Assembly: GCF_900104615.1 (NCBI RefSeq)
Contig: NZ_LT629939.1
Span: forward strand, 952,262 to 1,016,261
DNA from: Merdimmobilis hominis
GTDB lineage: Bacteria > Bacillota > Clostridia > Oscillospirales > Ruminococcaceae
DNA length: 64,000 nt
Direction of reading: 5' to 3'
A program made the position numbers and the translations under genes. Positions 33,172-41,294 of the stretch are shown here, piece by piece; the first letter of the stretch is position 1; every line of letters starts with the position of its first letter. Under the pieces are notes generated by a model. The model was given only the letters and a program-made list of their open reading frames with translations, was not told where the DNA came from and ran no database searches.

Positions 33172-33888
33172 ATGGCACTTGATATTTACTGCGGCTCTTT
33201 GGGCCGTTATTATGCCCATAACTGGTGCAATATTGAGGAGCAGAAAACCAAAGGCAAAGAACCCGGCATCGAGGGCGAGCGGATGACCGAACTGTGCAAC
33301 CTGCCCATCAGCGCCGAGGAGACTGGCGAAGTGGTGCTCCAGTGGAAAGAGTACATCACCGGCCAGATCCAGGCCCACCACAACTGCCCGGTTGATTGGG
33401 CCGAGGACCTGAATGGCGACTACGCCACCGACCGCCTCTCCTGGGAGAATTTCGGCGCCCTCATCATCTGGGCCCTCCATGTGGAGATGGGCCGCAAAGC
33501 CCCCCTGCATCGCCTGGGCGAGGACTGGGACTGGACAAAGGAGCCGGTGTACCGCAAGTATGTGGACGAAAAAGATTACAAACCCCATTATTCGGCCATC
33601 ATCACCGGGCCCCAGCTTTCTTTGCCGGTGGATGTGCCCTTTACCTTCACCGCCCAGTGCCCCAGCGGCAAGGTGATCCCCATGGCATCCAGCCTGCGGC
33701 AGCACGAGCAGCTCCTGGAGCTCAACGAAGCTCGCTGGAAGGCCACACCTGAGGAGATCCTCTCCTGGAAAGAGACCTACAAAGATGCCAGCATCCTGGA
33801 GGAGCGGGCCAAACAAGCCTACTCTGTCTACTATGCCTTGAGCAATTTCTGCATGGAGCACAATGTTCCCATGATGCTTGTATTCTAA
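33172..33888 (+). CDS. Conserved protein of unknown function (N-terminus MALDIYCGSL)
   Basis: Soluble 238-residue protein with no signal peptide and no membrane span, rich in tryptophan and acidic residues. Proteins starting with a similar LDIY.G.L.RYY pattern occur in many bacteria, but I know of no assigned domain or activity. The ATG at 33172 follows AGCGGAGGATT. It has its own promoter and terminator and lies 154 bases before the 7-alpha-HSDH gene. Confidence 0.75.
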   Translation: MALDIYCGSLGRYYAHNWCNIEEQKTKGKEPGIEGERMTELCNLPISAEETGEVVLQWKEYITGQIQAHHNCPVDWAEDLNGDYATDRLSWENFGALIIWALHVEMGRKAPLHRLGEDWDWTKEPVYRKYVDEKDYKPHYSAIITGPQLSLPVDVPFTFTAQCPSGKVIPMASSLRQHEQLLELNEARWKATPEEILSWKETYKDASILEERAKQAYSVYYALSNFCMEHNVPMMLVF

Positions 33889-33900
33889 TGTCAACCCACC

Positions 33901-33935
33901 GGCGGGAAGGAACGCGTTCCTCCCCGCCAATTTTT
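33901..33935 (+). terminator. Terminator after the gene at 33172
   Basis: GGCGGGAAGGAAC paired with GTTCCTCCCCGCC (one mismatch), then AATTTTT. Confidence 0.8.
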
Positions 33936-34042
33936 ATACCGCTGCCCCCAAAGGGCCCCGCTTATTTTTATCCCTTTGCCCTACTAAACGGTGGGATTTG
34001 GGACATCTTAGTAACGAAATGATCAACAAGGAGTGTAACCGA

Positions 34043-34840
34043 ATGAGATTGCAAAATAAAGTGGTATTGGTCACCGCCTCCACCCGCGGCATCGGCTGGG
34101 AGATTGTCAAAGCCTGCGCCAAAGAGGGCGCCGTCGTCTACATGGCGGCCCGCAACTTGGAAAAGGCCGAGGCCCAGGCCAAAGAACTGTGCCTGGAAGG
34201 CCACCGGGTGCGGGCGGTCTTCAACGACGCCTACCGGGAGGAGAGCTATGCCACCATGGTGGATGAAGTGGTGGAAAAAGAAGGCCGGGTGGATGTGTTG
34301 GTCAACAACTTCGGCACCGGAGACCCCAAACACGACTTCGATGTGGAACACACCGACTTTGAAGTGTTTATGGGTATCCTGCGGACTAACCTGGCCAGTG
34401 TCTACCTCAGCACCCAAAGGGTCATCCCAGTGATGAAGAAAAACGGGGGCGGCAGCATCGTCAATATCTCCTCCATTGGCGGCCTGTACCCGGATTTGGC
34501 CCGCATTGCCTACGGTATCAGCAAAAACGCCATCAACTATATCACCGAGAACTTGGCCGTCCAGGGGGCCCGCAGTGGTATCCGCTGCAACGCCGTGCTC
34601 CCCGGCATGACTGCCACCGAAGCGGTTTCTGGCAATATGAGCCCCGAGTTCAACGCCATGTTTATGAAGCACACCCCTATCCCCCGGATGGGCAAACCAG
34701 AGGAGATTGCCGCAGCTGTGGTTTACTTTGCCTCGGACGAATCCGCCTTTACCACCGGCCAGATCATGGCGGTCAGCGGTGGCTTCGGCCTGCCTACTCC
34801 GGTTTATGGCGACATGGTGGACTGGGCCAGCAGAACCTAA
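34043..34840 (+). CDS. Probable 7-alpha-hydroxysteroid dehydrogenase (SDR family)
   Basis: Short-chain dehydrogenase of 265 residues. Cofactor motif TASTRGIG (11-18), NNFG (89-91 plus G), and the catalytic set Asn116, Ser144, Tyr157, Lys161 (YGISK) are all present. Arg37 after the second strand favours NADP(H). Start, MRLQNKVVLVTASTRGIG, and the tail (SGGFGLPTP) closely resemble the NADP-dependent 7-alpha-HSDH of Clostridium scindens as I remember it, which oxidises the 7-OH of bile acids such as cholate. AAGGAG lies nine bases before the ATG. Substrate is inference. Confidence 0.8.
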   Translation: MRLQNKVVLVTASTRGIGWEIVKACAKEGAVVYMAARNLEKAEAQAKELCLEGHRVRAVFNDAYREESYATMVDEVVEKEGRVDVLVNNFGTGDPKHDFDVEHTDFEVFMGILRTNLASVYLSTQRVIPVMKKNGGGSIVNISSIGGLYPDLARIAYGISKNAINYITENLAVQGARSGIRCNAVLPGMTATEAVSGNMSPEFNAMFMKHTPIPRMGKPEEIAAAVVYFASDESAFTTGQIMAVSGGFGLPTPVYGDMVDWASRT

Positions 34841-34868
34841 ACCAAAGTCTGATCGAAATAATCAAGAA

Positions 34869-34898
34869 GGACGGCTCCCTATGGGGCCGTCCTTTTTT
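34869..34898 (+). terminator. Terminator after the 7-alpha-HSDH gene
   Basis: GGACGGC paired with GCCGTCC plus a CCC/GGG inner stem, then TTTTTT. Confidence 0.85.
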
Positions 34899-34944
34899 AT
34901 ACAGTTGTGCCGCCCGTCAGCTACAGGGCGAAAAAGGCGCCCTT

Positions 34945-40122: not shown

Positions 40123-40704
40123 TCACCGCTGGGCGATCCACTCCGCTTTGATCTGCCACAGCCCGGCCTGGACGCTTCCCACACCGGTGTTGTCCCCAGC
40201 CTTGATCCTTTCGTGGTGGCGGAAAAGCCGCCCCCAACTCTCTAAGATCTCCTGCTTCCACTGGGGGTAAAAGGCGGTGAGCATCACCTGGTTTTCATTG
40301 GCGCCGCACTGGGCCAACATCTGGTGGAATGCCTTTTCTTCCTTCTCTGTCTCCCCCAGGTACTTGAGGCAGACGATCTTATTCCAGTCATATAAGTCAA
40401 AGAGGACCGCCTCTTCCCGGGGGACATCCAAGGCTAGGACATGGCCGCCGCTTTGATCCATGCTGTACAAATCCTGAAACGCCCAATAGGGGAACTGGGC
40501 CCCTGGGGGTTTGGGGACAAACCGCTGGGCCTCCCCTACAAACCAACGGTAGGCGGTTAAAAAAATGGGGGCGCTTTCCTCGTATTTGCGGCGGACATAC
40601 TCCTCTTTGGAGAAGCAGACGCCATCCCGCCGGATGGCCTCTAGCACCGCGTCGGTTTGACAGGTGTAGAGCCGTATTGTGCCACGCTGGTCACCCATTC
40701 CCAT
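40123..40704 (-). CDS. DUF3841 protein, second of a tandem pair
   Basis: 193 residues, DUF3841. Shares with its neighbour an early AY.W block, the P.Y.. W motif, and the late Y-P-x(3-4)-E-I-[LV]-[ED]-SW-RLF segment, and ends in W.I...WI. Function unknown. Its start lies about 60 bases inside the neighbour's end; GGAGGT is placed for ATG 40704 or 40698. Cotranscribed with prmA. Confidence 0.85.
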   Translation of the reverse strand: MGMGDQRGTIRLYTCQTDAVLEAIRRDGVCFSKEEYVRRKYEESAPIFLTAYRWFVGEAQRFVPKPPGAQFPYWAFQDLYSMDQSGGHVLALDVPREEAVLFDLYDWNKIVCLKYLGETEKEEKAFHQMLAQCGANENQVMLTAFYPQWKQEILESWGRLFRHHERIKAGDNTGVGSVQAGLWQIKAEWIAQR

Positions 40705-41231
40705 TTCACCTCCCAGATAGTCCCATATTTTGCTTTATTCCCCAAAATGATGCTGTCGTCAAACAGCCGGTCCCAACTGTCCACAATCTCCCGCTTGATC
40801 TCCGGGTAAAACTGGGACATGTAAGCTTTGGCGTCGCTGACCCCGTACTCCTCCAGGAGCGCCCGATGGCGCTTGGCGTCCTGGGGGTCCTTGGGGATAT
40901 ACGAATAATTGAGGATGGTCCCCCATTTTTCGATGTTGACAGGGGTGATGATGGCAGGATCCAGCTCCAGCTCCAGGATGACCGTCCCTTCACTGGGGAG
41001 CATGGTCGCCTCGCTTTGAAAAGAGACCCACACTGGGTAATCCGCATCTGGCGGGCGGTTGCCCGCGTCCGGCCCATGCTTGACCAGCCAGTCGTAAGCC
41101 TCCAGAACCAGATCCGCATGCTCCTGCATATCCATGGCGATGTACTGCCGTTTGGCGGTGTAGCGCCCGGTCTTCTTCAGCTCTTCCAACACGTTTTTAT
41201 GCTGTTTGGTCCAAACTTTGATCTGTTCCAT
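40641..41231 (-). CDS. DUF3841 protein, first of a tandem pair
   Basis: 196 residues, paralogue of the next gene. Same DUF3841 landmarks: EAYDWL, YPVWVSF, and YPEIKREIVDSWDRLF, then a tryptophan-rich tail. GGAGG precedes ATG 41231. First gene downstream of a good promoter and so head of the run DUF3841-DUF3841-prmA-rsmE. Confidence 0.85.
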   Translation of the reverse strand: MEQIKVWTKQHKNVLEELKKTGRYTAKRQYIAMDMQEHADLVLEAYDWLVKHGPDAGNRPPDADYPVWVSFQSEATMLPSEGTVILELELDPAIITPVNIEKWGTILNYSYIPKDPQDAKRHRALLEEYGVSDAKAYMSQFYPEIKREIVDSWDRLFDDSIILGNKAKYGTIWEVKWEWVTSVAQYGSTPVKPTRC

Positions 41232-41265
41232 ACTGTCCTCCCCAGCCCATGCAGGCTCTATCGCT

Positions 41266-41294
41266 ATTATACGGGAAAAGCCCGCGGGAAACAA
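41266..41294 (-). promoter_or_regulatory. Promoter for the DUF3841-prmA-rsmE run
   Basis: Minus-strand TTGTTT (41289-41294), 17 bases, TATAAT (41266-41271). Confidence 0.65.

Follow-up and report, generated by a model that had tools for sequence, protein, structure and literature searches.

The closest characterised relative found for the protein studied here is the 7-alpha-hydroxysteroid dehydrogenase (7-alpha-HSDH) of Clostridium absonum, represented in the PDB by 5epo. PMC4785404 describes Thr145-Tyr158-Lys162 as catalytic in this enzyme, with Arg16, Arg38 and Arg194 surrounding the 2'-phosphate of NADP, and states that the C-terminal tail matters for activity. The same paper gives kinetic constants for the R194G mutant, whose change in Km is similar to that of R16G. 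In the phylogeny of PMC8096331, clostridial 7-alpha-HSDHs, cited as 'AAB61151.1 etc.', are separate from those of E. coli and Bacteroides, and PMC10382948 lists Oscillospiraceae as uncultured bacteria capable of 7-dehydroxylation. The gene of interest lies in a stretch of 64,000 nucleotides of Merdimmobilis hominis DNA (hereafter, the window), and very probably encodes a classical SDR of the clostridial HdhA family that would catalyse the reversible oxidation of the bile-acid 7-alpha-hydroxyl with NADP. AAB61151.1 we take to be the 7-alpha-HSDH of C. scindens.

The open reading frame is intact on the plus strand, running from ATG to TAA with 265 residues, and it is accompanied by a ribosome-binding motif and two hairpins:

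34043..34840, plus strand, stop included: hdhA-like gene for a predicted NADP-dependent 7-alpha-hydroxysteroid dehydrogenase of 265 aa (family models, PDB match, tree, fold, residues)
34028..34033, plus strand: Shine-Dalgarno-like AAGGAG, 9 bases 5' of the ATG (sequence reading)
34866..34900, plus strand: terminator-like hairpin 3' of hdhA (fold, -23.0 kcal/mol)
33901..33935, plus strand: hairpin separating hdhA from the gene 5' of it (33894-33940 folded, -19.2 kcal/mol)

A longer mechanical frame of the gene begins with TTG at 33878; with the ATG start, tblastn matches begin at residue 1 in 11 of 16 clade relatives and at residue 2 or 6 in the remaining five. The downstream hairpin has 13 pairs, two of them G-T, and a loop of four, with a T run that begins within the last stem pairs. 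The upstream hairpin has 11 pairs and TTTTT close behind, which suggests that hdhA is a separate unit, transcribed on its own. A scan for consensus terminators listed neither hairpin (2 sites found versus 1.9 expected from shuffles), so that their support consists of the folds and of sequence reading. The gene stands alone in the window, with no bile gene recognised beside it. Its G+C is 0.58, and its third-position G+C of 0.76 compares with 0.77-0.80 in the eight neighbouring genes measured, a comparison that gives no compositional sign of foreign origin. A gene on the opposite strand was also considered over 34043-34840, where the reverse frame is free of stops and a 234-aa reverse frame (33968-34672) overlaps; it was set aside because the family match belongs to the plus-strand frame.

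Two other places in the window deserve mention in their own right. The 238-aa protein upstream of hdhA (33172-33888, plus strand) matched nothing in Pfam or NCBIfam. Outside its own locus, an empty-site search turned up nothing closer than about 30% identity; such relatives occur in 3 of the 41 genomes searched, one of which is its own, with two of them elsewhere in it. At 40123-40704 and 40641-41294 (minus strand), adjoining reverse frames encode proteins that look alike by eye; the former has no NCBIfam match.

To assign the protein to a family we relied on curated models and on PDB sequences. NCBIfam models of 233 families matched, and the statements made here rest on the best 25 of these. 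Among them, NF049979 (7-alpha-hydroxysteroid dehydrogenase HdhA, equivalog) was the only one to score over its cut-off, with 404.8 bits against 350 (E 1.5e-121) and a match over model positions 1-257 of 258. A second 7-alpha-HSDH equivalog, NF050023, was missed at 208.3 bits versus 450, as it was by the relatives from C. difficile (214.7) and P. bifermentans (226.9). The best PDB sequence match was 5epo, at 260.9 bits (E 1e-76, residues 2-257). The next 12 distinct PDB sequences included 11 named 7-alpha-HSDH, from Brucella and E. coli, at 134.6-147.1 bits, and PtmO8 (5f1p), at 137.8 bits, scored highest of the chains without a hydroxysteroid dehydrogenase name; a characterised non-steroid SDR standing closer than 5epo was sought and not found. 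FabG and other reductases ranked after these. Genome contigs searched with the window protein yielded 14 distant SDRs, all at 36% identity or less, and no named close relative.

The structure was predicted from an alignment of 10 sequences, with a mean pLDDT of 84.1 and values under 50 for the C-terminal tail (residues 247-265). The top Foldseek match of the model was again 5epo (TM 0.92/0.94, 50% identity). Since 2000 chains or more resemble the model with an E value of 0.001 or lower, and several of these reach a TM near 0.9, the fold alone is not decisive.

The residues add more detail. The full SDR catalytic set named in the original prediction is present, with TASTRGIG at 11-18, NNFG at 88-91, N116, S144, Y157-x-x-x-K161 and PG at 187-188; S144, Y157 and K161 match Thr145, Tyr158 and Lys162 of 5epo, so that the Ser/Thr-Tyr-Lys set is complete. 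Two arginines that determine NADP use are kept, R15 and R37 matching Arg16 and Arg38, and the third contact to the 2'-phosphate, Arg194, is replaced by Glu193. Across the clade that holds both proteins (n=18, see below), the Arg16 place is Arg in 15 and the Arg38 place in 17, while Arg194 is kept by 5epo and L049 alone, with D or E at this place in 14 members. Since kinetic constants were reported for R194G, that mutant must have been active, and the Glu193 difference need not matter. The SGGFGLPTP tail, also named beforehand, was found at residues 245-253; it is identical in two aligned relatives (L041 and L053) and differs by at least one residue in the others. The original prediction also proposed a resemblance to the C. 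scindens 7-alpha-HSDH over the full length of the protein. Taken together, the HdhA equivalog, the position of 5epo as best characterised relative and the two retained arginines bear out the prediction of a probable NADP-dependent 7-alpha-HSDH, as far as sequence can.

The phylogenetic tree comprised 29 proteins, after L005, L008 and L009 had been omitted by eye from 32 aligned rows as being near to kept ones; four of the 14 distant SDRs from the contig search were in the alignment. Our analysis placed the window protein and 5epo in a clade of 18 rows with support of 100/98, and the E. coli and Brucella enzymes, together with the other SDRs of the window's own genome, outside it; PMC8096331 describes the same split between clostridial and E. 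coli enzymes. Within the clade, the window protein groups with 11 uncharacterised proteins (94/94, not starred), the nearest being L050 at 66% identity; the clade's sole characterised member in this tree is 5epo (50%).

Based on these comparisons, a reaction can be proposed. The proton of the 7-alpha hydroxyl of cholate, chenodeoxycholate or a conjugate would go to Tyr157, assisted by Ser144 and Lys161, and the hydride would pass to NADP+, the 2'-phosphate of which would be held by Arg15 and Arg37. The product would be a 7-oxo bile acid, and the reverse reaction would use NADPH. We infer the substrate and direction of the window enzyme, as well as its physiological use, which might be redox balance or lower bile-acid toxicity.

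In the sample drawn from the window's family, 7 of 148 genomes have a protein over the HdhA cut-off, as do 9 of 391 from its class, the window genome being in both samples; there was no second genome of its genus among the genomes sampled. None of 14 well-known control genomes passed, and 13 of them gave weaker SDR matches. We saw no sign of a phage-borne HdhA: 29 phage records matched, all below 60% identity, and the best 10 of the 29 reached 32-34%. The plasmid matches included 11 records from C. difficile. The one that was opened, L042, carries an hdhA-like gene between rplL and rpoB, whose product scores 449.8 bits on the HdhA model. The C. difficile copies were weighed as evidence of mobility and rejected, since tuf, rplL, rpoB and rpoC surround the gene in L042, which is most likely a piece of chromosome filed as a plasmid. 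On a 109-kb plasmid record of Paraclostridium bifermentans (pHD0315_2-2, L041), an HdhA of 65.5% identity is encoded near an AraC-type regulator; the 16.8 kb read there hold no rplL, rpoB, rpoC or tuf, and this record may be a true plasmid.

In the window's own genome we looked for other SDRs and for bile genes. There are eight matches to PF00106, of which six also match P0001, hdhA included; the other five P0001 matches represent four proteins, as two are FabG copies with equal scores. The remaining two PF00106 matches are weak (34.3 and 29.4 bits). The four proteins, all SDRs, were scanned against NCBIfam, with the best 25 families considered for each. L004 is over the cut-off of the FabG equivalog, and L002 over those of the EF-P 5-aminopentanone reductase equivalog and of the FabG and glucose 1-dehydrogenase subfamilies; L003 passes only those two subfamilies and L006 passes none. 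None of the four passed a hydroxysteroid dehydrogenase cut-off among these best 25 families. The original prediction had also seen a step towards epimerised bile acids; within this genome that part is unsupported, because none of the four was recognised as a 7-beta-HSDH. The two FabG genes (G000:C3:1470461-1471195 and 1473800-1474534) are 3.3 kb apart with equal scores and identical letters in the alignment, and reflect either duplication or an artefact of the assembly.

In this genome nothing matched PF00724, as a flavoenzyme of the BaiCD/BaiH type would, at E 0.001 or better, and the known 7-dehydroxylation route is therefore not expected there. For PF02275 (CBAH, the bile salt hydrolase family) there is a partial match of 20.8 bits (cut-off 20.4), covering 171 of 316 positions, in a frame that enters masked bases; for these reasons we count it neither for nor against the presence of a bile salt hydrolase. 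Beyond hdhA itself, the PF00724 and CBAH searches returned nothing in the window's own genome that links the gene to bile.

Bile genes do co-occur with HdhA among relatives. Of the 391 genomes sampled, 80 have a strong CBAH gene (E 1e-60 or better), and these include five of the nine HdhA genomes, a slight enrichment. The one-sided Fisher p is 0.02, or 0.011 when the window's own genome is left out, by a weak test that ignores relatedness. The two counts were made on the same sample with a different family each, and the genome handles shown agree. Four of the nine HdhA genomes have no strong CBAH gene, the window's own included. In 14 other HdhA genomes, CBAH was found at E 1e-60 or better in seven, weakly in two and not in five. 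A genome of the window's family, G021 (L054, L085), matches PF00724 six times and encodes two HdhA-like proteins, one over the cut-off and a second under it at 297 bits. One of its proteins matches the BaiCD equivalog at 849.6 bits against a cut-off of 825, and G021 is perhaps a bile acid 7-dehydroxylating bacterium; the BaiCD-like frames L093 and L086 were under that cut-off (3 of 15 PF00724 matches scanned).

Furthermore, in 4 of the 17 neighbourhoods compared, a transporter gene lies directly upstream of hdhA, with the frames touching or overlapping, in four relatives from three families:

L047:6580-7998, transporter gene upstream of hdhA
L048:1032-2447, transporter gene upstream of hdhA
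L055:8758-10182, transporter gene upstream of hdhA
L056:8764-10260, transporter gene upstream of hdhA

The neighbourhoods consist of mechanical frames; in L045 a longer reverse frame displaced that of hdhA, and L046 stops just past the 5' end of the gene. Two of the four transporters were run against Pfam and both matched MFS_1; three were run against NCBIfam, where a DHA2 efflux model leads, under its cut-off, and the L055 transporter was linked to the other three only by BLASTP. In L047 the transporter stop and the hdhA start overlap as ATGA. Transporter and HdhA in these relatives possibly form a pair that oxidises and exports bile acids. The window gene has no transporter neighbour of this kind.

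The genomic setting also bears on how the window enzyme might be used. A stand-alone HdhA could act mainly as a reductase, with 7-oxo bile acids made by others serving as a sink for electrons from NADPH, in a host without bai flavoenzymes or a clear bile salt hydrolase, the enzyme's NADP binding being changed because the third arginine is missing; we regard this as unlikely. A drifted substrate within the same clade is quite improbable: the protein would then be a ketoreductase built on a 7-alpha-HSDH scaffold, acting at a different position of the steroid or on a carbonyl that is not a bile compound. Such drift would fit an identity of 50% with 5epo, the clade's one characterised protein in the tree, the replacement of Arg194, the lack of a recognised bile gene next to it, a genome with neither a PF00724 flavoenzyme nor a strong match to CBAH, and the statement in PMC4785404 that 7-alpha-HSDHs accept benzaldehyde analogues and alpha-ketoesters. 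However, the score clears the equivalog cut-off and stands far above those for other SDR families, and bile genes accompany clade members.

That the protein is a 3-oxoacyl-ACP reductase of the FabG type, or a generic housekeeping SDR, is very hard to believe. The fold is the same, the top Foldseek matches include FabG structures, and the broad 'glucose 1-dehydrogenase' subfamily, the closest non-steroid family among the best 25 of 233, was missed by only 7 bits (208.0 versus 215). Nevertheless, the FabG models among those 25 gave at most 189.1 bits, the best against a cut-off of 222; 5epo stands 133 bits above the best FabG chain, and the genome has FabG elsewhere, in two copies over the TIGR01830 cut-off. 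That the enzyme is an E. coli-type 7-alpha-HSDH using NAD is next to inconceivable: E. coli HdhA (32.5% identity) and the Brucella enzyme (35.3%) share the SDR fold and the catalytic residues and are the next named relatives, but they stand outside the supported clade in a separate one and lack the NADP arginine pair, and the E. coli-type equivalog NF004773 was missed (175.7 bits versus 367).

Under the preferred assignment to the clostridial HdhA family, the gene is an ordinary, uncharacterised representative of a familiar group of enzymes and opens no new mechanistic question. It adds one more clostridial lineage that is probably able to shift bile acids between 7-hydroxy and 7-oxo forms, a shift that affects the supply of substrate for 7-dehydroxylation. 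Compared with the NF049979 model the window protein has no decisive difference, and some relatives score higher (L042 at 449.8 bits, L041 at 431.6). With the C. absonum enzyme it shares the fold, the catalytic places, the NADP arginines (Arg15 and Arg37 in its own numbering) and the C-terminal GGF-x-L-x-TP, at 50.0% identity over 256 aligned columns; it differs in having Ser144 for Thr145 and Glu193 for Arg194.
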